A stretch of DNA of 64,000 bases from Hyphomicrobiales bacterium. Its GTDB lineage: Bacteria > Pseudomonadota > Alphaproteobacteria > Rhizobiales > Methyloligellaceae. The position numbers and the translations under genes are program-made. The notes under the pieces were generated by a model that saw nothing but the letters and a program-made list of their open reading frames with translations, ran no database searches and was not told the DNA's origin. Positions 2,670 through 61,898 of this stretch are shown here, in pieces. Numbering within the stretch: position 1 is the first letter of the stretch; the number at the start of each line of letters is the position of its first letter. Location: NCBI GenBank assembly GCA_021775595.1, contig JAJFHN010000098.1, positions 1-64,000 of the forward strand, in the 5' to 3' direction.

Positions 2670-2999
2670 ATGGGTTCGCCGAACACATCAATCTTAAGCG
2701 AGGCGCTCGGCTGGCTTGACGAGGGCCGCGAGGTGGCGCTGGCCACGGTCGTGCAGACCTGGGGCTCTGCGCCTCAGCCGGTCGGCAGCCAGCTCCTGAT
2801 CGACAGCGATGGCAATTTTCTTGGTTCGGTCTCAGGCGGTTGCGTCGAGGGCGCGGTTATCGCCGAGGCAGGCGAGGTCATGGCGTCGGGTGAAGCCAAG
2901 TTGCTCGAATTTGGCGTCGAGGACGAAACCGCATGGCAGGTGGGTCTCGCCTGCGGCGGGACGATCCGGGTCTATGTCGAGCCGCTGAAAGCGCACTGA
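2670..2999 (+). CDS. XdhC/CoxI-family protein, N-terminal domain unit
   Basis: A 109-residue protein with the XdhC_CoxI domain signature: VALATVVQTWGSAPQPVGSQLL, then the Cys-containing SVSGGCVEGAVI and the closing GLACGGTIRVYVEP. XdhC proteins bind molybdenum cofactor, support its sulfuration, and insert it into xanthine dehydrogenase or CO dehydrogenase type enzymes. Here the family is split: this unit lacks the Rossmann half, which is the next gene 20 bases downstream. Split XdhC pairs beside a molybdopterin-binding fusion protein are common in alphaproteobacteria. The two Cys-containing loops are intact. It acts in the cytoplasm as a maturation factor; the client enzyme is not in this window. 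Confidence 0.85.
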   Translation: MGSPNTSILSEALGWLDEGREVALATVVQTWGSAPQPVGSQLLIDSDGNFLGSVSGGCVEGAVIAEAGEVMASGEAKLLEFGVEDETAWQVGLACGGTIRVYVEPLKAH

Positions 3000-3019
3000 A
3001 GCGCCAGGGAGCCAACATT

Positions 3020-3715
3020 GTGCAGAGGCAAGTCGTCGAGCAATTGATGTCGGACCGTGCCGAGCGCCGGCCCGCCGCGGTTCTGACTTGGCTTGCCAGC
3101 GGTGAACAGCGCATCATCCACGCTGAAGATATTGCGGCCATGCCCGAACTGGGCGAAGGGCTGACCGAGGCCCTGCGGCTTGACCGCTCGCGTGTGCTCG
3201 AGGGCGCCGACGGCGACGTTTTTGTCCATGTCTTCAATCCGCCGCTGCGGATGGTTGTCGTGGGCGCCGTCCACACGGCCCAATTCCTGGTGCCGATGGC
3301 CACGCTGGCGGACTATGACGTGACGATCATCGATCCGCGCACGGCGTTTGCTTCGGAGGAGCGGTTTCCAAATGTCAATTTGGTGACCGAATGGCCGGAT
3401 CAGGCACTGGCCGAATTCGGCTTGGATACACGAACGGCATTTTTGGCGCTGACCCACGATCCCAAGATCGACGATCCGGCGCTTGGCGTCGCGCTGGCGA
3501 GCGAGGCGTTCTACATCGGCGCATTGGGCAGCAAGAGGACGCACGCCAAGCGCGTCGAGCGTCTCGTCGCACAAGGTATTTCCGAACAGGCGATCGGTCG
3601 CATCCACGCGCCGATCGGTCTCAACATCGGCGCGGTGGGACCGGTCGAGATTGCCATGTCGATTATGGCCGAGGTGACGGCCGTGTTGCGCGGCAAGAGC
3701 GGGTCGGGGCCATGA
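3020..3715 (+). CDS. XdhC-family protein, C-terminal Rossmann domain unit
   Basis: A 231-residue protein carrying the XdhC Rossmann domain: MVVVGAVHTAQFLVPMA (dinucleotide-fold entry), VTIIDPRTAFASEERFP, and the family hallmark YIGALGSKRTHAKRVERL followed by RIHAPIGLNIGAVGPVEIAMSIMAE. I place the start at the GTG at 3020, which has GGGAG eight bases upstream, not at the earlier in-frame ATG inside the preceding gene. It complements the adjacent XdhC_CoxI half, and the two together equal a full-length XdhC. Its stop overlaps the next start (ATGA), so translation is coupled to the molybdopterin fusion gene. Role: cofactor handling for a molybdenum hydroxylase. Confidence 0.85.
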   Translation: MQRQVVEQLMSDRAERRPAAVLTWLASGEQRIIHAEDIAAMPELGEGLTEALRLDRSRVLEGADGDVFVHVFNPPLRMVVVGAVHTAQFLVPMATLADYDVTIIDPRTAFASEERFPNVNLVTEWPDQALAEFGLDTRTAFLALTHDPKIDDPALGVALASEAFYIGALGSKRTHAKRVERLVAQGISEQAIGRIHAPIGLNIGAVGPVEIAMSIMAEVTAVLRGKSGSGP

Positions 3716-5354: not shown

Positions 5355-5396
5355 AATAAAAAACGCCCGCCGGATCACCGACGGGCGTTTGTTTTG
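5355..5396. terminator. Bidirectional rho-independent terminator
   Basis: A perfect 9-bp stem (AAACGCCCG at 5361-5369, CGGGCGTTT at 5382-5390) closes a 12-base loop. It is followed by a T-rich tract on the plus strand and by TTTTTTATT on the minus strand. It lies between two convergent genes and would end both the molybdenum maturation operon and the monooxygenase operon. Confidence 0.85.
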
Positions 5397-5426: not shown

Positions 5427-6248
5427 TCAGAGCGACATCGGCGACTTTTTGTCGGTCAGTTCCTTGGCGAAATCTTTGCCATAGATGGTCGGGAACAGAT
5501 AGTTGACGAACCTGTTCACGACTTCCATCAGAACGCCACCAAGCGCCAATGCGGTCCACCCGAAGATCACGAAGCCGTAATGGATCGGCGCCGTGAAGAT
5601 CTCCTCGAACGCCCAGAATGCGTGTCCCCATTCATTGAAGCCAAGATTAGGCATCAGCATGAACGGACCGGCGACGGCCATCGTCAAGGGGATCGAAATT
5701 CGACGCGAATAGATCGGCAGACGGGTCATCGCGTAGACATACGACGTGATGCCAAGCACGATGTAGAGCGGGAACGCGCCATAGAAGAGCACGATGTGGC
5801 TCGGCGTGAAGCTGGTGTCGCGGATGGCCACTTGATGCCAAGCTGCGTCCTGTTCGGCGAAGAAGCTGCCGGCCCAATAGACGGCAAAGACGTAGCAGGT
5901 CAGGATGCCGACAAAGTTGAAGATGCGTTTGACTTCCTCACGCGGCGCCAGATTTACCATATCCCGGTCGCGAGTGAGCCACAGATAGCTCCAAATGCCA
6001 ATGCCGAGAGCCGCCGTGAACGCCAGATTGAAATAGAACAGGTTCATCCAATAGAACTGGAAGTCCGGATGCGTGGAGTCCATGCCAAACTCCCACCCCG
6101 CCCATTGCTGATACCAGCGTTGGATCAACCAGCCGCTGGCGATGACCGCCATGGCGAGAAACATCTTGCCCGGTGACGTCCAAAACCACATCTTCGGCGT
6201 CTTGGTTTTTGACGTCTCGACGGTGCCAGCTGTGTCTAGAGAAGCCAT
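5427..6248 (-). CDS. pxmC: Copper membrane monooxygenase subunit C (PmoC/PxmC family)
   Basis: A 273-residue polytopic membrane protein of the PmoC/AmoC family, the subunit that carries the CuC copper site of particulate methane monooxygenase. The metal ligands are all present: D134, H138 and H151 in AEQDAAWHQVAIRDTSFTPSHI, matching Asp156, His160 and His173 of the Methylococcus enzyme with identical spacing. The downstream FMLMPNLGFNEWGHAFWAFEE segment is also family-typical. The start has a strong GAGGAGGAAG ribosome site. It is the last gene of an A-B-C operon, 175 bp after subunit B, and that gap holds a plausible promoter of its own. The substrate (methane, ammonia or short alkanes) cannot be read from sequence. 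Confidence 0.9.
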   Translation of the reverse strand: MASLDTAGTVETSKTKTPKMWFWTSPGKMFLAMAVIASGWLIQRWYQQWAGWEFGMDSTHPDFQFYWMNLFYFNLAFTAALGIGIWSYLWLTRDRDMVNLAPREEVKRIFNFVGILTCYVFAVYWAGSFFAEQDAAWHQVAIRDTSFTPSHIVLFYGAFPLYIVLGITSYVYAMTRLPIYSRRISIPLTMAVAGPFMLMPNLGFNEWGHAFWAFEEIFTAPIHYGFVIFGWTALALGGVLMEVVNRFVNYLFPTIYGKDFAKELTDKKSPMSL

Positions 6249-6334
6249 GCACTTCCTCCTCTTCGTTGCAATCTCGTTCCACTAGAGGGTCGGCGAAAAT
6301 TCGAAGCCAACCATGGAATTCGGATTCTGGTTTC

Positions 6335-6363
6335 AATATGAGCTTTTGCTTATCTTTCGTCAA
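6335..6363 (-). promoter_or_regulatory. Candidate internal sigma-70 promoter for pxmC
   Basis: On the minus strand TTGACG (6363-6358) is separated by exactly 17 bases from CATATT (6340-6335), about 90 bp before the pxmC start. The surrounding 175-bp gap is more AT-rich than its neighbours. This would let subunit C be made independently of A and B. Confidence 0.45.
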
Positions 6364-6423
6364 TCAGCAGAAGCCGCACTTACGTATATATCCTTAGCGA
6401 ATTGGCCGTTTGCTTGGTCTTAC

Positions 6424-7689
6424 TTACTCCCCAGTCGATTTCTGGAAATTGGGCAAGATGGGCCCGCCCACATTGGCGATGTACCGGTTGCCGGCGTCAT
6501 CAAAGAAAAACATCAGCCCGCCGAAGGAATTATCTGGCGAGCGCAACATTCCGACGAGACGCTCGCGTTCCCAGGCGGTGTCGCTGGCGATGGCCTCAAT
6601 ACTGCGCGTTTCACCCGGTTGGATCGGCGAGTTGTCGCTCACCTTCAGGCTGCCGACGAGCGCATAATCCGTGGGATAAGCCGAATCGACGTTAGCCACT
6701 GCGGCGGGAACCGACGAGTCGATGAAGCGCAGATTGGCGGACATGAACTCACCCAGACGCACAGGCGCGTCGGCGTTGTTTGTGACGTTCATCACCACCG
6801 TCAGGGTGCGGCCGGGAACGTAGTATTCGCCCCTGTCGACGCTCACCGTGATTTTAGGTTCGATCATCGGCGTGTTGTTGACGATTGTTTTGCCGCCCTG
6901 CAAGGGGATCGTCGTCGGGTACTTCATATCCGTGTAGACATAAGCCCCGATGACGACGGAAATAACCGATACCAGCAGGACGACGCCGACCTTGCGGTCG
7001 GTCGGCGTGATCAACCGGTCCCACTCCTTGTTGTGGACCATGATGAAGCGAGGAATGAGCAACGGCCGGGCCAGCCAATAAAGCGCCCAGCTTAGTGCGA
7101 CGGCGATCCAGAAGGCGTGCCAGGTGACGACGGTGGTGAGATTGTAAGTCTCCAGATTCTCGATTTTTTCACCAGTCATGATTTGGCTCGACTTGACATA
7201 ATCATCCTGCGAGCCCGTCACCTTGACCTCAATGCCGGGCCCGATGATGGGGCCGGAACCTTCGATGCTCAGCATCGGATGAATGTGATTGTCGCCCGGG
7301 CGGCGCGCCTTCATGACGACACGAAAATCATAATCGTGGCCGATCAGGATATCGTTGGTCGAAGTCGGAACGGGCTTGCCGTTTATGTCGAGTGCCTCGC
7401 GCGTGAACGTCGGCCCGGGAACGGCGATACCGAGAAACGTTGCCGCCTCGCCCGGCTTTTCAAGAACCTGCGGCCAGTCATAATGCATCCGGAACTTGCC
7501 GGAGATCTCGATCAAATCGTTGACCGCATACTCCCGCTTGTCCGGGAACTTCACGTCGTACCACTGAACCGTCCGCATGCGCAGGAAGGGTTCTTGATTG
7601 CGCTCGCCATGGGCCAACACGGATGCCGGAACGGCGGTGACGAACAGCGTGAGCGCCAGAAGCGCGAAAACCAAGCGTTCGAGTTTCAT
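6424..7689 (-). CDS. pxmB: Copper membrane monooxygenase subunit B (PmoB/PxmB family)
   Basis: A 421-residue protein with a signal peptide (MKLERLVFALLALTLFVTAV...VLA) that would be cleaved just before HGERNQEPFLRMRT, leaving His27 as the mature N-terminus. That His, with H135 and H137 in ARRPGDNHIHPML, forms the three-His CuB site of pMMO (His33, His137 and His139 in Methylococcus). The position equivalent to Methylococcus His48 is Gln42, a replacement also reported (as Asn) in alphaproteobacterial pMMOs. Two periplasmic cupredoxin-like domains are separated by transmembrane segments (AFWIAVALSWALYWLA and VGVVLLVSVISVVIGAYVYT). I chose ATG 7689, with GAGAGGAAC upstream, over the in-frame GTG at 7710. 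It follows pxmA by 33 bp. Confidence 0.92.
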   Translation of the reverse strand: MKLERLVFALLALTLFVTAVPASVLAHGERNQEPFLRMRTVQWYDVKFPDKREYAVNDLIEISGKFRMHYDWPQVLEKPGEAATFLGIAVPGPTFTREALDINGKPVPTSTNDILIGHDYDFRVVMKARRPGDNHIHPMLSIEGSGPIIGPGIEVKVTGSQDDYVKSSQIMTGEKIENLETYNLTTVVTWHAFWIAVALSWALYWLARPLLIPRFIMVHNKEWDRLITPTDRKVGVVLLVSVISVVIGAYVYTDMKYPTTIPLQGGKTIVNNTPMIEPKITVSVDRGEYYVPGRTLTVVMNVTNNADAPVRLGEFMSANLRFIDSSVPAAVANVDSAYPTDYALVGSLKVSDNSPIQPGETRSIEAIASDTAWERERLVGMLRSPDNSFGGLMFFFDDAGNRYIANVGGPILPNFQKSTGE

Positions 7690-7722
7690 CGACTGAGTTC
7701 CTCTCAACACAACTTGCTGTGG

Positions 7723-8544
7723 TTAGGCCTTGAGGGGCAAATCGCCCTCATTGGGTTTTTCTTCTTGGCCATAGCCCATATGGGTGCGCAGCACGTTGGG
7801 TATGGTGATGAGCTTGCAGAAGAATTTACCGATCTGCCACCAGATCATGTACATGATGATGCACAAGAAGGCGGAGAAAAACGCCGAGACCGGCGCGGCC
7901 GAGCCGCCGAAGGTTCGAAGCGTGCCGCGGTTGATGATCCGCAAATACTCCGGCGTCGAAGTCCGGGTGTAGGTGTAGCCAATCTGATCGGCGACCGACA
8001 TCAACGAGCCATGGACGTCGACCGGCTGCATAAAGGCCGCAAGCATCGGCCAGTTGCCCGGATAGAACATCAGACCAAACGCCATGCCGCCGAAGATCGC
8101 GGTCATCAGCATGTTGCCGGTCAGCATGAGCACAAGATCAAGCACGATGGCGCCCGGGATCAGCGTCGCCGGCCAAACCATGGAGAAGGGCATATAGGCC
8201 CACATGTTGAAGGCGGTGACGCGGGTGATCCACTCCGCGAGAACGAGGGCCAGGAGGCAGAGCGTTGCTGCGAATGGCAGTCGGAAATTTTCCCAGAAGA
8301 TGTATTGAAAGGCGGCGGGGAAGGTGATCAGCAGCACGGGCGTAATCACGACCCAAAAACGCTCATCCTTCCAGTCCACCCAAAAGTCCCAATCGCCGAT
8401 GGTCAGCATTGCGTGAACGTGGAATGCCGCCATCAGCAGCATCAGCACGATCAATGCGACGGCGAAGTCGAATATGCGGGACAGGAAACGGAGGTCCGCG
8501 CCCGAACCGAGTTTCGAATCCGAACCACTCTCAGAAACTGCCAT
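7723..8544 (-). CDS. pxmA: Copper membrane monooxygenase subunit A (PmoA/PxmA family)
   Basis: A 273-residue integral membrane protein of the PmoA/AmoA family with about seven hydrophobic segments. Diagnostic motifs are HVHAMLTIGDWDFWVDWKD (residues 42-60, the GDWDFW site targeted by the classic pmoA primer), PAAFQYIFWENFRLP, and RTSTPEYLRIINRGTLRTFGG. The N-terminus is about 20 residues longer than Methylococcus PmoA, and a polar C-terminal tail is present. I chose ATG 8544, which has GGGAGAG upstream, over the earlier in-frame ATG at 8577. Its position as first gene (A-B-C) differs from canonical pmoCAB and amoCAB and matches pxmABC operons. It is controlled by an FNR-type promoter just upstream. 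Confidence 0.92.
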   Translation of the reverse strand: MAVSESGSDSKLGSGADLRFLSRIFDFAVALIVLMLLMAAFHVHAMLTIGDWDFWVDWKDERFWVVITPVLLITFPAAFQYIFWENFRLPFAATLCLLALVLAEWITRVTAFNMWAYMPFSMVWPATLIPGAIVLDLVLMLTGNMLMTAIFGGMAFGLMFYPGNWPMLAAFMQPVDVHGSLMSVADQIGYTYTRTSTPEYLRIINRGTLRTFGGSAAPVSAFFSAFLCIIMYMIWWQIGKFFCKLITIPNVLRTHMGYGQEEKPNEGDLPLKA

Positions 8545-8624
8545 GACGTTCTCTCCCAGAAACGCGGTAAGGGACAATGCGGCTATTCCGCTCTGCCCCG
8601 ATTTGCTCTCACCGTGCGATCTGC

Positions 8625-16151: not shown

Positions 16152-17990
16152 ATGAAGCCCAAAGACGCCACCGCAGCGCGCCGCGGCGTGCCGCCAACCG
16201 ACATTTCCAATCCAAATTACTTCCACAAAATTGTCGACTGCCAATGGGCCTGTCCGACACACACACCCGTGCCCGAATACATCCGCTTGATAGCCCAGGC
16301 GCGTTACACCGACGCCTTCATGCTCAATTGGGAATCGAACGTCTTTCCGGGCATTCTGGGACGCACTTGCGACAGGCCGTGCGAACCCGCTTGCCGGCGC
16401 GGGCGCTTGGATGAAAAACCGGTGGCAATTTGCCGCCTGAAGCGCGTTGCCGCCGATTATAAAGGCGACATCGAGCACCGGCTGCCAAAGGTTCCCAAAC
16501 GCAAGAACGGCAAGCGGATTGCCTTGATCGGCGCCGGTCCTGCCTCGCTCACCGTGGCGCGCGATCTGATGCCACTCGGCTACCGCTGTGTGCTGATCGA
16601 AAAAGATCCCCAGGGCGGCGGCTTGATGCGCAGCAATATTCCGCGCTTCCGGTTGCCCGAGTCCGTGCTCGATGAGGAAGTCGACCGGATCGTCGATATG
16701 GGTTTGGAGACGCGCTACGGCCAGGAAGTCGCCAGCCTGAAATCTGTTTTGGATGAGGACTTCGACGCCGTATTTGTCGGCACCGGCGCGCCGCGCGGCA
16801 AAGATTTGCAGATCACGGGCCGCGAGGCCGGCGCCGCCAACATCCATATCGGCATCGATTGGCTCTCCTCGATCGCCTTTGGTCACGCCGACTCGATCGG
16901 CAAGCGGGTCGTCGTTATCGGCGGCGGCAACACGGCGATGGATTGTTGCCGCACGGCGCTGCGGGTGGGCGGCAAGGACGTGCGGGTGACCGTGCGCAGC
17001 CCGCGCAAGGACATGAAGGCCTCGGAATGGGAAATTGAGGACGCCGAAAAAGAAGGCGTGCCAATTTTCGACAATCATGCGCCGCAGGAATTCATCGTCG
17101 AAAACGGCAAATTAACCGGCGTGCGCTTTGCCAAAATGAAGGCCGAGTATGACGAGGCCGGCAAGCGCACCCTGGTGCCAACGGGCGAGGAAGTGGTGTT
17201 TGAGTGCGACGACGTTCTGATGGCGATCGGTCAGGACAACGCCCTGCCGTGGATTGAGCGCGACATCGGCATCAGTTTCAACGAATGGGACATGCCGGTT
17301 GTCGATGGCACGACGATGCAGTCGACCAGACCGAATGTGTTTTTCGGCGGTGACGCAGCCTGGGGCCCAGAGAACATCATTTGGGCCGTCGCTCACGGCC
17401 ATCAGGCGGCCATCTCGATCGATTTGTTCTGCAAGGGCCAGTCGCTGAGTAACCGTTTGGCGCCTGGCGCCAGCCTGGTCAGCCAGAAAATGGGAATTCA
17501 CGAGTGGTCCTACGACAATGATTTTTCCGGCGACCGGCGGGTGCCGGTGCCCCATGCCGACAATCAAAAGGCGCTCAAGGACCTCGATGTCGAAGTCGAA
17601 CTTGGCTATGACGACAGGCTGGCTTTTCAAGAAGCCGAGCGTTGCCTCAACTGCGACGTGCAGACGGTTTTCGAGCGCGATTTGTGCATCGAGTGCGACG
17701 CCTGCATGGACGTTTGTCCCGTCGACTGCATCAACTTCACGTTCAATGCGGATGAGGCGAATTTGCGCGAACGGCTGCGCGTGCCGGCGGCGAATGAAGA
17801 ACAGGACCTCTATGTTTCCGATGCGCTGAAGACGGGCCGCGTGATGGCCAAAGATGAAGATCTCTGCCTACACTGTGGACTGTGCGCCGAGAGGTGCCCG
17901 ACAGGCGCTTGGGATATGCAGAAATTCACCTATGTGGAGGCTCAGGCATCGCCCAGTTGCGCGGCCTACAGCACGTCTTATTTGCGATGA
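16152..17990 (+). CDS. korC: GltD-like iron-sulfur flavoprotein, KorC-type subunit of a 2-oxoacid oxidoreductase
   Basis: A 612-residue protein in three parts. The N-terminal GltD-like cluster domain has C30, C34, C73, C77 and C81 (CQWACP and CDRPCEPAC). The FAD/NAD(P)H module has GAGPASLTVARDL at about 126-138 and GGGNTAMDCCRTALR. The C-terminus holds two [4Fe-4S] ferredoxin motifs (CIECDACMDVCPVDC and CLHCGLCAERCPTGA). It would pass electrons between KorAB and NAD(P)(H). The size and gene order match KorC of the 2-oxoglutarate:NADP+ oxidoreductase described in Azoarcus evansii. GAGPAS instead of the usual GAGPAG is a mild variation. Its stop overlaps the korA start (ATGA), so the subunits are translationally coupled. 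Confidence 0.8.
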   Translation: MKPKDATAARRGVPPTDISNPNYFHKIVDCQWACPTHTPVPEYIRLIAQARYTDAFMLNWESNVFPGILGRTCDRPCEPACRRGRLDEKPVAICRLKRVAADYKGDIEHRLPKVPKRKNGKRIALIGAGPASLTVARDLMPLGYRCVLIEKDPQGGGLMRSNIPRFRLPESVLDEEVDRIVDMGLETRYGQEVASLKSVLDEDFDAVFVGTGAPRGKDLQITGREAGAANIHIGIDWLSSIAFGHADSIGKRVVVIGGGNTAMDCCRTALRVGGKDVRVTVRSPRKDMKASEWEIEDAEKEGVPIFDNHAPQEFIVENGKLTGVRFAKMKAEYDEAGKRTLVPTGEEVVFECDDVLMAIGQDNALPWIERDIGISFNEWDMPVVDGTTMQSTRPNVFFGGDAAWGPENIIWAVAHGHQAAISIDLFCKGQSLSNRLAPGASLVSQKMGIHEWSYDNDFSGDRRVPVPHADNQKALKDLDVEVELGYDDRLAFQEAERCLNCDVQTVFERDLCIECDACMDVCPVDCINFTFNADEANLRERLRVPAANEEQDLYVSDALKTGRVMAKDEDLCLHCGLCAERCPTGAWDMQKFTYVEAQASPSCAAYSTSYLR

Positions 17991-19819
17991 AACGTATCAA
18001 CGAATTCGTCATCAAGCTGGCCACGGTCAACGGATCGGGGTCCGCCAGCGCGAACACGCTGTTTGCTAAGGCCTTGTTCCGCTTGGGCCTGTATGTCAGC
18101 CCGAAGAATATCTTCCCGTCGAACATCCAGGGACTGCCGACTTGGTATGAAGTGCGGGTGAGCCAGGCTGGCCATATGGCGCGGCGCGAGGGCGTCGACA
18201 TCATGGTGGCGATGAACCCGCAGACCTATGCCGAGGACGCCACAGAGGTGTTGCCGGGCGGATATTTGATTTACGATTCGAGTTTGATCCGGTCTTTCGA
18301 GCGCGACGATATCGAGGTGCTGCCCATCCCGATCGCGCAGATGTGCGCTAAGGAATACAAGGATCTGCGCGAACGTCAGCTCTTTAAGAACATCGTTTAT
18401 GTCGGCGCGCTCACCGCGCTGCTCGATATGGACTATGACATCGTCACCCAGTTGGTCGAAGAGCGCTTCAAGCGCAAACCAAAACTGATCAAGCCCAACC
18501 TCAAAGCGCTTGAGATTGGACGAAAATACGTGCTGGAGACGTTCCAGTGTCCGTTGCCGGTCAAGGTACGCCCTTGCGAGGGTACGCACGGCAAGATCAT
18601 CATGACGGGAAACGAAGCGGCGGCGCTTGGCTGTGTGTGGGCCGGCGCCACGGTCGCATCCTGGTACCCGATCACGCCATCCACATCGCTGGCTGAGGCG
18701 TTTGAGAAATATTCCAGCAAGCTGCGGCTCGATGAAGAGGGCCGCAGACGCGTCGCCGTGGTCCAGGCGGAGGACGAGCTGGCGGCGATCGGGATAGCGA
18801 TTGGCGCGGGCTGGAACGGCGCGCGCGCCTTTACCGCCACATCGGGCCCGGGCGTCTCTTTGATGAGCGAATTTCTGGGACTTGCCTATTTCGCCGAGGT
18901 GCCTCTGGTGCTCTTTAACGTACAACGTGGCGGCCCCTCGACCGGCATGCCGACGCGCACGCAGCAATCGGATATCATTTGTTGCGCCTATGCCTCGCAC
19001 GGCGACACCCGGCAGGTGCTGCTGATACCTGGCGACCCGCATGAGTGCTTCGACTTCGCCGCCCAGGCCTTCGATCTGGCCGAACGGCTGCAAACGCCGA
19101 TCATCGTCATGAGCGATCTCGATCTTGGCATGAACGATTGGGTGATCGACCCCTTGATCTGGGACGACACACACAAGCACGACCGCGGCAAAGTATTGGA
19201 TGCGGAAGCGCTCGAAGAGATCGAGCAGTTCGGCCGCTATCTTGACGTCGATGGCGACGCCATTCCCTACCGCACGATTCCGGGCACCCATCCCACCAAG
19301 GGCGCCTATTTCTCGCGCGGCTCATCGCATGACGCCTATGCGCGATACACCGAAAACGGTGAGTTGAACGCCGCCAATCTCGATCGCTTGGCGCGCAAGT
19401 TCGAGACGGCGGCCAAAATGATGCCGCGCCCGGTGATCAAGCGGGCCAGCAAAGCCTCCAAGCTCGGCCTGATCAATTTCGGATCGACCGAGCCCGCCGT
19501 CCGCGAAGCAGTGGGATTGCTCAAACGCGATGGCTACAAGCTCAACACCATGCGCCTGCGCGCCTTTCCATTTGGCAAGGACATCGCGGCGTTTGCGGCT
19601 GAACACGAACGCATTTTCGTCGTGGAGATGAACCGGGATGCGCAGATGCGCACGCTGCTCATCGCCGAGGCCGGTATCCCGGCTGAAAAACTAATCCCGG
19701 TGCTGAGCTATGACGGCATGCCGATGACGGCGCGCCAAATCGCGGCGAAAGTACAGGGCACGATCGAAAGCGACAAAAGCGTCGCTCAGGCGCTGCGGCT
19801 GTCGGCGGCAGCGATGTGA
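17987..19819 (+). CDS. korA: 2-oxoacid:acceptor oxidoreductase, fused gamma-alpha subunit (KorA)
   Basis: A 610-residue protein in which the gamma domain (about 1-190; VNGSGSASANTLFAKALFRLG, then SNIQGLPTWYEVRVS) precedes the pyrimidine-binding alpha domain (GNEAAALGCVWAGATVASWYPITPSTSLAE, EDELAAIGIAIGAGWNGARAFTATSGPGVSLM, NVQRGGPSTGMPTRTQQSD). These are hallmarks of 2-oxoglutarate/2-oxoacid:ferredoxin oxidoreductase alpha subunits. With KorB it decarboxylates a 2-oxoacid to its acyl-CoA using thiamine diphosphate. The ATG at 17987 overlaps the korC stop. The precise 2-oxoacid is not certain; 2-oxoglutarate is favoured because the three-gene set matches the Azoarcus enzyme. Confidence 0.85.
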   Translation: MKRINEFVIKLATVNGSGSASANTLFAKALFRLGLYVSPKNIFPSNIQGLPTWYEVRVSQAGHMARREGVDIMVAMNPQTYAEDATEVLPGGYLIYDSSLIRSFERDDIEVLPIPIAQMCAKEYKDLRERQLFKNIVYVGALTALLDMDYDIVTQLVEERFKRKPKLIKPNLKALEIGRKYVLETFQCPLPVKVRPCEGTHGKIIMTGNEAAALGCVWAGATVASWYPITPSTSLAEAFEKYSSKLRLDEEGRRRVAVVQAEDELAAIGIAIGAGWNGARAFTATSGPGVSLMSEFLGLAYFAEVPLVLFNVQRGGPSTGMPTRTQQSDIICCAYASHGDTRQVLLIPGDPHECFDFAAQAFDLAERLQTPIIVMSDLDLGMNDWVIDPLIWDDTHKHDRGKVLDAEALEEIEQFGRYLDVDGDAIPYRTIPGTHPTKGAYFSRGSSHDAYARYTENGELNAANLDRLARKFETAAKMMPRPVIKRASKASKLGLINFGSTEPAVREAVGLLKRDGYKLNTMRLRAFPFGKDIAAFAAEHERIFVVEMNRDAQMRTLLIAEAGIPAEKLIPVLSYDGMPMTARQIAAKVQGTIESDKSVAQALRLSAAAM

Positions 19820-19841
19820 AGCGAGTGAGGAACAAGGCGAG

Positions 19842-20897
19842 ATGACCTACATCAAGAAGCCGGCGATCCGCCATCCGGGATTGCGGCAAAACAATCTGGG
19901 ACTGACGCGGCGCGATTATGAGGGCGTGCTTTCGACGCTGTGCGCTGGCTGCGGACACGACTCGATTTCTGCCGCCATCATCGAGACCTGCTTCGAGCTC
20001 GATTTGCCGGCCAACCGCATCGCCAAGCTCTCGGGCATCGGCTGCTCGTCTAAGACGCCGAACTATTTTCTCGATCGCGCACACGGTTTCAATGGCGTGC
20101 ACGGGCGCATGCCCTCGGTGGCGACCGGCGCCAACATTGCCAATCGCGACCTGATTTATCTCGGCATCTCCGGCGACGGAGACACGGCCTCGATTGGGCT
20201 CGGCCAGTTCAGCCACGCCATAAGGCGGCGGGTCAACATGATCTATATCGTTGAGAACAACGGCACCTATGGCCTCACCAAGGGCCAGTTCTCGGCGACC
20301 AACGACCGGGATTCCAAGAGCAAGAAGGGCGAGGACAATCTGTTTGATTCCATCGACCTGGCGATGTTGGGGATCCAGCTCGGCGCGGGCTTCGTGGGGC
20401 GCTCGTTTTCAGGCGATAAAGATCAGCTCGTGCCGCTGATGAAAGCGGCGATGCGCTATAACGGCTTCGCGCTGCTCGACATCATTTCGCCGTGCGTGAC
20501 GTTCAACAATCACGCCGCCTCGACCAAGAGCTACGACTATATCCGCGATCATTCCGAGGCGGTCGATAAGCTCGATTTCGTGCCCGAGCGCGAAGAGATC
20601 ACGGCCGACTATGAAGAAGGTCAGACGATCTACGTGAAAATGCACGACGGCTCGATGATGCAGCTCCATAAGCTGTCGCAGGATTACGATCCGCGCGATG
20701 CGGATGCGGCCCTTGCCACATTGCGCAAGCGTTTTACCTCGGGGCAGGTCGTAACAGGGCTGCTCTATATCGACGACCGCAAGCAGGATTTACACGAGCT
20801 GATGAAAACCACGAAGACGCCATTGAACGCGCTCCATATGGATGAGCTCTGTCCCGGCAGAGCCAAGCTCGATGAGATCAACAAGGAATTTGCCTGA
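19842..20897 (+). CDS. korB: 2-oxoacid:acceptor oxidoreductase beta subunit (KorB)
   Basis: A 351-residue thiamine diphosphate-binding subunit. Cluster-ligand cysteines are seen at C34 and C37 (LCAGCGH), C68 (GIGCSS) and in SPCVTF. The thiamine-Mg site reads GDGD (111-114) followed by ENN (138-140) in IYIVENNGTYGLTKGQ. The residues after SPCVTFNN match KorB and not pyruvate-specific subunits. It follows korA by 22 bp with AGGAACAAGGCGAG before its ATG, and converges with an aminotransferase gene 11 bp beyond its stop. The enzyme is cytoplasmic and oxygen sensitivity would be expected for this family. Confidence 0.87.
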   Translation: MTYIKKPAIRHPGLRQNNLGLTRRDYEGVLSTLCAGCGHDSISAAIIETCFELDLPANRIAKLSGIGCSSKTPNYFLDRAHGFNGVHGRMPSVATGANIANRDLIYLGISGDGDTASIGLGQFSHAIRRRVNMIYIVENNGTYGLTKGQFSATNDRDSKSKKGEDNLFDSIDLAMLGIQLGAGFVGRSFSGDKDQLVPLMKAAMRYNGFALLDIISPCVTFNNHAASTKSYDYIRDHSEAVDKLDFVPEREEITADYEEGQTIYVKMHDGSMMQLHKLSQDYDPRDADAALATLRKRFTSGQVVTGLLYIDDRKQDLHELMKTTKTPLNALHMDELCPGRAKLDEINKEFA

Positions 20898-56827: not shown

Positions 56828-57499
56828 TCAGCCGACGACGATGACGTGCAGGCGGCGGGGACCGTGGGCACCCATTACCATTGTTTGCTCGATGTCGGCC
56901 GTGCGCGAGGGCCCGGAAATCAGATTGACGTTGCGCGGCAACGTGCCCTCGCCATAGCTCTTACGCAGCCTGTTCCAGGCATCTTCATAGCCGCCGACAA
57001 TGTCGGATTTGCGGATTACGGCGATATGGGTCTCAGGGAGAAAATTGAGAGTGGTCGGATTGTCGGGCCCAGAAGTCAAAAACAACGTGCCCGTTTCTGC
57101 CGCGCCGACCTGCGCGCGGGTGATGCCTGTCGTGTCCGATGGCTCGGCCGGGCCCGAGGCGATTTCGAGCGCGCCCGCCATTTTCCAAGGCAGTTCCGAT
57201 AGCATTTCGTCTTCGCCGATACGCACGCGGGCGGCCAGATTGAGATCCCGCAGATAGCGCGCCACCGCCTCAGGCACGTCTTCCTCGCGCGCGATCCAGT
57301 CGAGGGAGGCTGCTTGACCCTCCAGCATATCGGCGAACAAGGTGGCGAGATTCTCGATCTCGCCCTTGGCGCGCGCCGGCACGGTTCCGGAGGGGTGGTG
57401 CTTGAGACGCTCGGCAGCGCTGGAGGCACGGATCTTGTCGGAACCGGAAACACCGAGCCCGGTGCGGATTGCGCTCAATGTGCGTTCGCGGGCCGTCAT
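56828..57499 (-). CDS. lutC: LUD-domain protein LutC
   Basis: A 223-residue LutC/YkgG-family protein: TARERTLSAIRTGLG opening, central VGAAETGTLFLTSGPDNPTTLNFLPETHIAVIRKSDIVGGYEDAW, and the closing DIEQTMVMGAHGPRRLHVIVV. LutC is a subunit of the LutABC L-lactate oxidase complex, without its own Fe-S motif. ATG 57499 overlaps the lutB stop (ATGA). Last gene of the lutABC operon (order lutA-lutB-lutC on the minus strand). Confidence 0.9.
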   Translation of the reverse strand: MTARERTLSAIRTGLGVSGSDKIRASSAAERLKHHPSGTVPARAKGEIENLATLFADMLEGQAASLDWIAREEDVPEAVARYLRDLNLAARVRIGEDEMLSELPWKMAGALEIASGPAEPSDTTGITRAQVGAAETGTLFLTSGPDNPTTLNFLPETHIAVIRKSDIVGGYEDAWNRLRKSYGEGTLPRNVNLISGPSRTADIEQTMVMGAHGPRRLHVIVVG

Positions 57500-58914
57500 G
57501 TCCGCCAACCCGCGCGCCATTGATCCTGAAATGTGCGCCCTTGGGGTGCGGGGAGGTCGCGGTTGCGGGTCCAACCGCTCAGCAAGGGCAGAGACCGGAT
57601 GGCGCCCTTGCGGCGGCCCAGAAGCGACAGAAATCCAACGCCGATCGATGTCGCGGCGTGATAGAGCGCGGGACGCTTGGCGAGAAAGGCCCACGCCTTG
57701 AATGCAGTGCGCTGCCCCAGCGGCATGCGGCCTTGGTCGACCTCGCGTTCGCGCCAATGACGCATCATCTTGGGCAAGGGTATCGACATTGGGCAGACGG
57801 CCTCGCAACGGCCGCAGAAACTGGATGCGTTGGGCAGATGGCCGGCCTCCTCGACACCCACCAGCGAGGGCGTGAGGACGGCGCCCATCGGCCCGGGATA
57901 GACCCATCCATAGGCGTGGCCACCGACGGCGTTGTAGACGGGGCAATGGTTCAGGCAAGCGCCGCAGCGGATGCAGCACAACATGTCGTGGAACTGACCG
58001 CCCAGCATGGCCGAGCGGCCATTGTCCAGCAGGACCACGTGATAGTTGTCGGGCCCATCGAGATCGCCATCGCGCTTGGGGCCGGTGGAATAGGTCGTGT
58101 ATGTCGACATGTCTTGGCCGGTGGCCGAGCGTGCCAGGATGCGCAGGATTGTGTTGGCGTCTTCCAAGGTTGGCGCCATCTTCTCGATGCTGGCGATCAC
58201 GATGTGGGTGCGCGGCAGCGTTTGGGTCAGATCACCGTTGCCCTCGTTGGTGACGATCACAGACGTACCCGTTTCGGCAATCAGCAGATTGGCGCCGGTG
58301 ATGCCGACATCTGCTGCGACAAAGCGCTCGCGCAGCACGGCGCGGGCTTCGGCAACCAGATTTTCGGCGTTGCTAAGATCACGCTCGGCAGGCAGGTCGG
58401 TGTGGGTGCGGCGGAAATCGGCTTCGATCTGCGGCCGCGTTAAATGGATTGCCGGCCCGATGATATGGCTTGGCGCTTCGCCCCGGATCTGAATCAGATA
58501 TTCGCCGAGATCGGTCTCGAACACCTCAAAGCCGGCGTGTTCCAAATGGTCGTTGATGGCGATCTCTTCGCCGATCATTGACTTGCCCTTGGTCACCGTG
58601 CGGGCGTTTTGCTGGCGGCAGATGTCGGCAATGATACCGCAAGCCTCGGCCGCGTCGGCTGCCCAATGAACGTGACCGCCATGCTCGACCACCTTGGCTT
58701 CATAGGCTTCGAGATAGAGATCGAGGTGAGCGAGCGTGTGATTCTTGATGTCGCGCGCTTCGTTACACAGTTGATCGAATTCCGGCAGAGCGCTGCGCGC
58801 GCGCGCGCGTTTGGCGACAAAACCGCTGCGAACATTGGAGAGCGCTGATTGCAGAACATCGTCGTGCAGGGCGCGGGCGGCGTTTTCCTTAAAATTGTGG
58901 GAACGCGGTTGCAT
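57496..58914 (-). CDS. lutB: LutB, iron-sulfur LUD-domain subunit of L-lactate oxidation
   Basis: A 472-residue protein: an N-terminal LUD domain (TVTKGKSMIGEEIAINDHLEHAGFEVFETDLGEYLIQI, GITGANLLIAETGTSVIVTNEGNGDL), then two [4Fe-4S] motifs, CCIRCGACLNHCPVY and FCGRCEAVCPMSIPLP. This is the LutB/YkgF pattern. The complex oxidises L-lactate to pyruvate and passes electrons to the respiratory chain. It begins 6 bp after lutA. The second cluster motif is CxxCxxxCP, the usual form. Confidence 0.92.
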   Translation of the reverse strand: MQPRSHNFKENAARALHDDVLQSALSNVRSGFVAKRARARSALPEFDQLCNEARDIKNHTLAHLDLYLEAYEAKVVEHGGHVHWAADAAEACGIIADICRQQNARTVTKGKSMIGEEIAINDHLEHAGFEVFETDLGEYLIQIRGEAPSHIIGPAIHLTRPQIEADFRRTHTDLPAERDLSNAENLVAEARAVLRERFVAADVGITGANLLIAETGTSVIVTNEGNGDLTQTLPRTHIVIASIEKMAPTLEDANTILRILARSATGQDMSTYTTYSTGPKRDGDLDGPDNYHVVLLDNGRSAMLGGQFHDMLCCIRCGACLNHCPVYNAVGGHAYGWVYPGPMGAVLTPSLVGVEEAGHLPNASSFCGRCEAVCPMSIPLPKMMRHWREREVDQGRMPLGQRTAFKAWAFLAKRPALYHAATSIGVGFLSLLGRRKGAIRSLPLLSGWTRNRDLPAPQGRTFQDQWRAGWRT

Positions 58915-60131: not shown

Positions 60132-60461
60132 CCTGGGAACTCCTTGTATTCCATGAGCTAAAGTTTGGTGTTCGGTTCAGTCTCACTATCACAAATTCGA
60201 CCGCAGCAGTCAGTCGTGCGATTGCTGGGTTAATGAGCGCTGGCTCATCTAGCAGAAAACCCGTCAATCCGATACGTGAATTCGACGAATTGACAAAACC
60301 TTACGCCGATTATCCTGAACCTCGAATGAACGGTTCAAGCGGTGTGGCATAGCCGCCAAGCCGCCGTTAGACTATGACTGTGCGGCTCGCGATTATGCCG
60401 CGCGCTTGGATTTTAGAGGTTGCGGCTTGACCGCGCCCGCATCGAAACAACGAGCTGCTCA
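60132..60461. other. Divergent promoter region between cytochrome c and glcD
   Basis: About 330 bases without a gene, expected to hold promoters in both directions. A TTGACA at 60290-60295 faces glcD, but the best -10 (TATCCT, 60311) sits at an unfavourable 15-bp spacing, so the assignment is weak. No operator-like palindrome stands out. Confidence 0.4.
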
Positions 60462-61898
60462 ATGGACGCCATTGCCCTTCCCGAGCCAAGGGAAGATATC
60501 ATTGCCCGGCGAGAAGAGATTGTCCGCAAGCTCAAGACGTTGGTCGCGCCCGATTGCGTGATCGACGATGAGACGGGCCGGCGAGCCTATGAGACCGACG
60601 CCCTGACGGCCTATAAGCGATTGCCCCTGGCGGTGGTCCTGCCGAGCAACACGCAGGAGGTCTCGCGTGTGCTGGCCTATTGCAACGAGAACGCAATCAA
60701 AGTGGTTGCACGCGGCGCGGGAACGTCGTTGTGCGGCGGCGCTCTGCCGCAGGAAGACGCCATCGTACTCGGCGTCTCCAAGCTCAATCGCGTGCTACAT
60801 ATCGATTATCAAAACCGCACGGCGCGCGTCGAAGCCGGCATCACAAACATTGCGATCTCCAATGCCGTAGCATCGGCCGGTTTCTTCTACGCGCCAGATC
60901 CTTCCAGTCAAATCGCCTGCACGCTGGCGGGCAACATCGCAATGAATTCCGGCGGCGCCCACTGCCTCAAATACGGCGTGACCACGAACAATGTGCTTGG
61001 CATCAAAATGGTGCTGATGACAGGCGAGGTGATTGAATTCGGCGGTGAGGCGCTCGATGCGCCGACCTATGATCTGCTCGCGCTCATCGTCGGATCGGAA
61101 GGCCAATTCGGAATTGTGACCGAGGCGACGGTACGCATTTTGCCCGCCGCAGAGGCGGCGCGGCCGATGCTGCTTGGATTTGAGACGAGCAAGGCGGCGG
61201 GGGCCTGTGTTGCTGCAATCATCGGGGCTGGCGTCATTCCGGTGGCGATCGAGTTCATGGACCGGCCGGCGATCGAGGTGTGCGACGACTTCTCGAAGGC
61301 AGGCTACCCGCGCGATGTCGAAGCGCTGCTGATCGTCGAAGTCGAGGGGTCCGAATCTGAAATCGAAAATCTGCTCACTCGCATTCAACAGATCGCCAGC
61401 TTCTTCGAGCCCAAAGTGATCCGTGTCAGTCAAAGTGCGGAAGAGAGTGCCGCTATCTGGAAGGGGCGCAAGGCGGCCTTTGGCGCCATGGGCCATATTT
61501 CCGACTACTACTGCATGGACGGCGTCATTCCGTTGCGCAAACTGGCCGACGTGTTGGTTGAGATTTCGCGAATTTGCACCGAGCACTCGTTGCCCGTGGC
61601 CAATATTTTTCACGCCGGCGATGGCAATCTGCATCCGCTTATTCTCTACAACGCCAACGATGCCGAGGAGGCAAGCCGGGCCGAGGCGTGCGGCGCAGAA
61701 ATTCTCAAGCACTGCGTCAAGGTGGGCGGCTGCCTGACCGGCGAACACGGTGTGGGTATCGAAAAGCGCGACCTTATGGGCCTGCAATTCACGAAGATCG
61801 ACTTAGAACAGCAGATGCGCATCAAGTCCGTATTCGACCCCAACTGGTTGCTGAACCCCGCCAAGGTCTTTCCCTTGGACGGCCGCGAGATGCCGTAA
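60462..61898 (+). CDS. glcD: Glycolate oxidase FAD-linked subunit GlcD
   Basis: A 478-residue FAD-binding oxidoreductase (FAD_binding_4 plus C-terminal FAD-oxidase domain): VARGAGTSLCGGALPQEDAIVLGVSKLNRVLHID (FAD loop), NIAMNSGGAHCLKYGVTTNNVLG, and GDGNLHPL with GEHGVGIEKRDLMGLQF. It oxidises glycolate, and often D-lactate, to glyoxylate or pyruvate. ATG 60462 is preferred; a TTG 14 codons earlier follows AGAGG and cannot be excluded. First gene of glcDEF, divergent from the cytochrome c and lutABC. Confidence 0.93.
   Translation: MDAIALPEPREDIIARREEIVRKLKTLVAPDCVIDDETGRRAYETDALTAYKRLPLAVVLPSNTQEVSRVLAYCNENAIKVVARGAGTSLCGGALPQEDAIVLGVSKLNRVLHIDYQNRTARVEAGITNIAISNAVASAGFFYAPDPSSQIACTLAGNIAMNSGGAHCLKYGVTTNNVLGIKMVLMTGEVIEFGGEALDAPTYDLLALIVGSEGQFGIVTEATVRILPAAEAARPMLLGFETSKAAGACVAAIIGAGVIPVAIEFMDRPAIEVCDDFSKAGYPRDVEALLIVEVEGSESEIENLLTRIQQIASFFEPKVIRVSQSAEESAAIWKGRKAAFGAMGHISDYYCMDGVIPLRKLADVLVEISRICTEHSLPVANIFHAGDGNLHPLILYNANDAEEASRAEACGAEILKHCVKVGGCLTGEHGVGIEKRDLMGLQFTKIDLEQQMRIKSVFDPNWLLNPAKVFPLDGREMP

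Follow-up and report, generated by a model that had tools for sequence, protein, structure and literature searches.

A copper membrane monooxygenase operon in A-B-C order, probably of hydrocarbon type, in an uncultivated alphaproteobacterium

Two described groups of copper membrane monooxygenases (CuMMOs) bear most closely on the locus reported here. The pxmABC operon of methanotrophs is called uniquely organised in A-B-C order in the excerpted text of PMC6215863, and the phmo genes of Cycloclasticus are, in the excerpted text of PMC12510462, hypothesised to act on n-pentane and placed in clades active on ethane and butane. Literature searches, which reached few subscription papers, gave no title or abstract among the matches listed that describes A-B-C order outside Pxm. 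We analysed an A-B-C operon in positions 1-64000 of contig C101 (JAJFHN010000098.1) of the Hyphomicrobiales assembly GCA_021775595.1 (G000, the host genome); this whole stretch of 64,000 nucleotides is called the window. The locus is a real, complete CuMMO that has its gene order in common with Pxm and its sequence not. We think that it probably encodes a short-chain hydrocarbon oxidiser, pHMO-like and of proteobacterial type, in a self-contained A-B-C operon that arose independently of Pxm, in an uncultivated alphaproteobacterium carrying other divergent CuMMO operons.

Gene order, copper sites and phylogenetic placement

Translation of the open reading frames (ORFs) gives three intact CuMMO genes on the minus strand at 8544-5427, in the order A-B-C. 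A first, sequence-only reading of the window had described this operon as complete, and the Pfam matches agree, with scores far over the respective cut-offs for AMO (330 bits), Monooxygenase_B (433 bits) and AmoC (310 bits). The PmoA-like gene, xmoA (7723-8544), encodes 273 amino acids from the ATG at 8544, which is residue 12 of an open frame reaching a TTG at 8577 (284 amino acids). The PmoB-like xmoB (6424-7689) encodes 421 amino acids from the ATG at 7689, residue 8 of a frame that reaches a GTG at 7710 (428 amino acids), and the PmoC-like xmoC (5427-6248) encodes 273 amino acids from an ATG. The copper ligands listed in that reading are all present: H27, H135 and H137 of PmoB, counted from the ATG (H34, H142 and H144 in the long frame), and D134, H138 and H151 of PmoC, accompanied by N205, H209 and H223. 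The CuB, CuC and CuD ligand sets are complete.

Gene orders were read from the best 80 of 106 relatives, which we fetched. The nearest PmoA relatives (L028-L039, 53-57% identity), mostly metagenome-assembled genomes (MAGs) titled Gamma-, Beta- or Alphaproteobacteria, have C-A-B order once an over-long B frame in L038 is allowed for; among the fetched relatives, A-B-C order is otherwise found only in Pxm loci of methanotrophs. Two of the nearest loci, L034 and L036, stand under record titles naming Klebsiella pneumoniae; their CuMMO operons nest among those of gammaproteobacterial MAGs, and the names are very likely wrong. In another locus, L093, the order is A-B-C and both B and C fall into two ORFs; this operon is broken or misassembled.

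For a concatenated tree of the C, A and B subunits (915 columns), a manual choice of 49 rows covered the groups, AMO by a single row, that of Nitrosomonas. The window enzyme grouped with the Cycloclasticus pHMO and L049 (support 85/96), inside a 19-row clade (97/97); the remaining 18 rows of that clade are C-A-B and include the host's own copies on contigs C57 and C73. Judged by sequence, this clade appears to hold hydrocarbon-type and unassigned enzymes. The 16 other A-B-C rows, which are Pxm, formed one separate clade (100/100), and the window enzyme also lay outside the canonical pMMO clade; trees of the kind that the sequence-only reading had proposed place it with hydrocarbon-type rows and not inside canonical methanotroph PmoA, PmoB and PmoC. 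In a reduced tree of 40 rows, from which nine long or isolated rows had been removed, the window enzyme still grouped with 12 C-A-B rows (96/94). Approximately unbiased (AU) tests rejected a topology in which all A-B-C rows were forced into one clade, with p 0.040 for the 49 rows and 0.00175 for the 40 rows.

Quick single-gene trees were built for PmoA, leaving out 12 loci as near-duplicates or broken, and for PmoB, leaving out 15 named loci and any PmoB shorter than 350 amino acids. A branch of the PmoA tree, with a support of 95 in the Shimodaira-Hasegawa-like approximate likelihood-ratio test (SH-aLRT), parts 24 rows of the C-A-B hydrocarbon type, the window enzyme among them, from Pxm and pMMO, without resolving its position within the 24. 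The PmoB tree places it with Cycloclasticus and L049 (93). A plasmid collection held five PmoB relatives, all below 40% identity, two of which are the outgroup of the trees; a pattern search of viral contigs for relatives gave no match.

A site in PmoC offers a further comparison. The excerpted text of PMC8630023 describes the position of HmoC Ala151 as a conserved alanine in HMO and a preferred aspartate in methane oxidisers. We located it by motif, as the residue after RDT. In the NBB4 protein as annotated the alanine has the number 127, and in Rhodococcus 152; the correspondence to number 151 is therefore not confirmed. The window PmoC reads QDAAWHQ..RDTSFTPSH, with Ser146 at the site, and the 16 of 16 aligned Pxm rows read QDNSWHQ..RDTPFTANH. 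The residue is proline in all 37 other A-B-C loci with a readable PmoC, aspartate in the 10 of 10 aligned canonical pMMO rows having PmoC, and variable in C-A-B loci (serine in 15, aspartate in 15, alanine in eight, proline in two, one unread). Five PmoCs of the host genome span it: serine occurs in the window and on C32 and C64, proline on C57 and alanine on C73, and none of the five has the methane-type aspartate. Since the Nitrosomonas PmoC also has serine here, serine alone does not indicate a hydrocarbon type; it counts against a methane type and a Pxm type rather than in favour of a hydrocarbon type.

These results bear on the sequence-only reading's view of A-B-C as the Pxm arrangement, which the concatenated trees, the PmoC residues and the operon spacing contradict and which single-gene tests leave undecided. 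The corresponding alternative, a deep-branching true Pxm that inherited A-B-C order from a Pxm ancestor and diverged in sequence, would suit an order seen otherwise only in Pxm among the loci read, and called unique to pxmABC in the literature excerpt cited above. AU tests on the quick trees, which covered PmoA and PmoB, fail to reject a union with Pxm (p 0.36 and 0.131). We nevertheless consider it unlikely: both concatenated tests reject it and the PmoC residues differ. The B-C intergenic gap (6249-6423, minus strand) measures 175 nt against 7-69 nt (median 18) in 36 Pxm operons, single gap values being approximate since starts were picked by script. The window PmoB also scores lower against full-length Pxm PmoB (289-340 bits) than against Cycloclasticus-type C-A-B rows (387-415 bits). 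A Pxm identity drawn from gene order alone was dropped on the concatenated trees, the AU tests, the PmoC motif and the spacing.

Host genome and metabolism

The host genome comprises 2,895,596 bases in 103 contigs, with an estimated completeness of 97.8% and contamination of 0.17%. It holds four PmoA genes, the window locus being one, which a reader of the window without tools could not see. A genome-wide search had been suggested by the sequence-only reading; it brought to light further CuMMO operons on C57, C73 and C75, and dehydrogenases of the xoxF/mxaF type were not found. The C-A-B operon on C57 (L019, 1044-16601) has an acyl-CoA ligase and a 3-hydroxyacyl-CoA dehydrogenase, of beta-oxidation type, on one side and on the other BoxB (886 bits in the equivalog match), part of a benzoyl-CoA epoxidase cluster. 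The C-A-B operon on C73 (L020) has genes for acyl-CoA ligase and enoyl-CoA hydratase close by. On C75 (L018), a PmoC tail is followed by CuMMO A and B genes, two genes for small proteins and one for a multicopper oxidase-like protein; in the 49-row tree this operon is the sister group (85/87) of the alphaproteobacterial and related pMMO clade. A PmoC search of the genome found eight places, five of them partial at contig ends: C32 and C64 carry near-identical heads, C82 repeats the start of the C73 gene, the tail on C38 resembles the C73 and C57 type, and C75 has another tail. Probably pmoC is present in more copies than were assembled.

Contig C73 also carries a stand-alone PmoB-like protein of 332 amino acids (L020:5734-6732), which retains the two cupredoxin halves along with the CuB histidines (AHGE, SHIHP) but not the transmembrane middle; its gene lies close to the C-A-B operon and the acyl-CoA ligase. 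We take this protein to be a natural counterpart of engineered soluble PmoB. No second stand-alone gene of this kind was seen among the best 80 of 106 relatives and their flanks, where L093 has its split B, and the plasmid matches are annotated as ordinary subunit B.

Among 30 genomes of the family, only the host has a real PmoB, two others giving weak matches (E 2e-4 and 6e-5); PF02461 occurs in 3 of 397 sampled genomes of the order and PmoB in 2 of 385 sampled genomes of the class, the host counted in each. The PmoA of one genome of the same order, G259, is 98.8% identical to Methylocystis loci, which suggests that the host belongs to the order of Methylocystis (Hyphomicrobiales/Rhizobiales). 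A search of the host assembly for a 16S gene found none. An alphaproteobacterium in the class sample has a PmoB relative (L121, G433 contig C97) at 39% identity with one in-frame TGA; it stands outside all our trees.

Three pyrroloquinoline quinone (PQQ) alcohol dehydrogenases of the host genome pass the TIGR03075 cut-off and two weak places fall below it. The matches lie on C16, C64, C81 and, weakly, C3, and none on the window contig, so the window is free of methanol dehydrogenase, as first read. For the first, the best solved relative is quinoprotein ethanol dehydrogenase with 844 bits, the best methanol dehydrogenase scoring 382; for the second it is a type II quinohaemoprotein alcohol dehydrogenase (797 bits, best methanol dehydrogenase 344); the third scores 344 bits against ethanol dehydrogenase and 288 bits against XoxF. 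No PQQ dehydrogenase closest to XoxF or MxaF was found in the host genome. Nor were Fae and Mch found in the whole genome, with positive controls, in searches that covered the tetrahydromethanopterin (H4MPT) route and no other formaldehyde route; the absence of a formaldehyde gene from the window, noted in the sequence-only reading, extends to Fae in the entire assembly. PF13447 (hydroxylamine oxidase) and PF02332 (soluble diiron) gave no match in the host genome, nor in any control, so these blanks carry no weight.

With no XoxF/MxaF-closest dehydrogenase, no Fae and no Mch, the host is likely a non-methane user, as the sequence-only reading had suspected, and its gene set looks like that of an organism that oxidises hydrocarbons or alcohols, rather than of a methanotroph. 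The same absences, and the lack of the methane-type aspartate in all five PmoCs spanning the site, make it quite improbable that the window enzyme is a methane monooxygenase isozyme of a methanotroph, in a high-affinity or micro-oxic form. CuMMOs are promiscuous, the copper sites are intact, the C75 operon has the pMMO clade as its sister, and formaldehyde-route searches covered H4MPT only; these are the points that an isozyme could claim.

Operon boundaries and neighbouring genes

The operon appears to consist of A, B and C only, given a terminator-like hairpin after xmoC and a next downstream gene that runs in the opposite direction. The hairpin (5361-5390, minus strand) starts 36 nt past the xmoC stop and has 13 pairs, nine of them G-C, and a loop of four, followed by TTTATT; the region has six terminator-like sites, where shuffles gave 4.0 (sd 1.9), and none of the others has a stem nearly as long. 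A weak promoter-like match (9/12) upstream of xmoC, at 6335-6363 on the minus strand, is not evidence of function, with three such sites in the region against 1.8 expected by chance. Across 35 C-A-B operons the C-A gap ranges from -47 to 409 nt, with 145 nt as the median. The long B-C gap of the window operon fits a pmoC that retained its own leader through the change of order and is no proof of it.

Across 34 long ORFs of the window the GC content is 0.61 (sd 0.026) and the GC at third codon positions (GC3) 0.727 (sd 0.058); the three genes have 0.56-0.58 and 0.76-0.78. With GC one to two standard deviations low and GC3 within one, the composition gives no glaring sign of recent import. Rearrangement at this locus and arrival in rearranged form are both compatible with the data.

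A Pfam scan of the window covered 20 proteins. Next to the operon lie XdhC, MobA-like and short-chain dehydrogenase/reductase (SDR) genes; SDR-gene synteny across the 30 family genomes gave no usable signal, SDRs being too numerous. The XdhC at 2670-3715 consists of two overlapping ORFs, with the XdhC_CoxI part at 2670-2999 and a Rossmann part at 2933-3715, and is either two genes or one gene with a frameshift. At 16152-20897 an Fe-S pyridine-nucleotide oxidoreductase precedes a 2-oxoacid:ferredoxin oxidoreductase encoded by two genes (POR domains and a thiamine pyrophosphate domain), perhaps an unexpected companion to an oxygen-using oxidase. The lactate and glycolate genes named in the sequence-only reading are there, as LUD/LutB_C (57496-58914) and an FAD-linked oxidase (60420-61898).

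Proposed function and comparison with known systems

If expressed, the three subunits would assemble in the membrane, where the PmoC copper site (D134, H138 and H151, with N205, H209 and H223 beside it) would activate O2 and hydroxylate a small hydrophobic substrate, by sequence most likely a C2-C5 alkane or alkene. The resulting alcohol could then be oxidised by the PQQ-dependent ethanol-type and quinohaemoprotein alcohol dehydrogenases, and its carbon taken up through acyl-CoA ligases, enoyl-CoA hydratases and beta-oxidation. The A-B-C order may have come from a C-A-B operon by rearrangement, for example by a tandem duplication after which the leading C and the trailing A-B were lost. A bolder version, which we offer tentatively, is that the operon marks a second independent origin of A-B-C order, in a hydrocarbon-type lineage of its own, and that the host is an alphaproteobacterial multi-CuMMO specialist on gaseous alkanes, with four phylogenetically distinct operons, no methanotroph C1 pathway and a substrate new to CuMMOs.

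Several results weigh against assignment to a hydrocarbon oxidiser of independent origin. The main doubts are a long end branch (0.96) with modest sister support; an unstable sister group, since in the 40-row tree the enzyme sits at the base of the 13 rows instead of next to Cycloclasticus; single-gene tests that give no clear verdict; and a weak link to AMO, whose Nitrosomonas row is sister to the 19-row clade with low support (80/72, 49-row tree). That AMO row has a branch of 1.28, joins C75 in the quick PmoA tree and shifts again in the quick PmoB tree. To our knowledge, no assay exists for most rows of the 19-row clade. The serine of the PmoC site is shared with Nitrosomonas, and the margin of the third PQQ dehydrogenase over XoxF is small. 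The operon contains no downstream oxidation gene, and its XdhC, MobA-like and SDR neighbours are uninformative on substrate. In a 103-contig assembly, moreover, a gene that seems absent may have fallen into a gap.

An automatic annotation would point to ammonia oxidation, as all three subunits (5427-8577) pass the NCBIfam AmoA_BACT, AmoB_BACT and AmoC_BACT equivalog cut-offs. The weak sister position of the AMO row, the PmoC serine and a best PDB match of PmoC to AMO chains (263 bits) would also agree with an ammonia monooxygenase. We think this very unlikely, given that PmoA and PmoB match pMMO chains best (294 and 366 bits), that two other host CuMMO operons stand near acyl-CoA genes, and that the AMO row sits on its long branch and changes position between trees. 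AmoB_BACT is passed by the copies on C75, C57 and C73 too, all four full PmoB copies of the host, so this cut-off does not discriminate and the assignment to AMO from NCBIfam was dropped.

Least probable of all is mis-binning, with operon and remaining gene set from different organisms: it could draw on the 103 contigs, the PmoC pieces at contig ends and tetranucleotide values of window pieces with C73 (0.55-0.65) and C81 (0.56-0.62) that are no closer than with a Skermanella locus (0.66), but the operon is interior to a 79.7 kb contig, contamination is estimated at 0.17%, and window pieces agree with each other (0.70-0.75), with C57 (0.68-0.78) and with C64 and C16 (0.66-0.73), against 0.24-0.66 for 14 other loci.

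If A-B-C order has two origins, an operon cannot be assigned to Pxm by its order alone, and a database name of the AmoABC kind misleads for the window operon. The host genome provides a testable case: a CuMMO-rich alphaproteobacterium that is apparently no methanotroph. It bears on which organisms consume ethane to pentane in nature.

Among known systems, the Cycloclasticus-type pHMO is the nearest supported group in the 49-row and PmoB trees and shares the copper ligands and a non-methane PmoC site, although Cycloclasticus loci with all three genes are C-A-B, the window PmoB is only 47% identical to the closest (L044), and the window host is alphaproteobacterial. The actinobacterial HMO/BMO of Mycolicibacterium chubuense NBB4, our outgroup, is likewise a hydrocarbon-type CuMMO, and an AMP-binding gene follows soon after its operon as on host contig C73, but it has C-A-B order, about 30% PmoB identity and alanine where the window PmoC has serine. 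Canonical pMMO (pmoCAB) belongs to the same superfamily and shares the CuB, CuC and CuD ligands, and differs in its C-A-B order, its aspartate at the PmoC site and its separate clade. Pxm resembles the window operon in its A-B-C order and in being one of several CuMMO operons in a genome, whereas the window enzyme falls in another clade in concatenated trees, has another PmoC motif and B-C spacing, and belongs to a host without the methanotroph C1-oxidation genes searched for.

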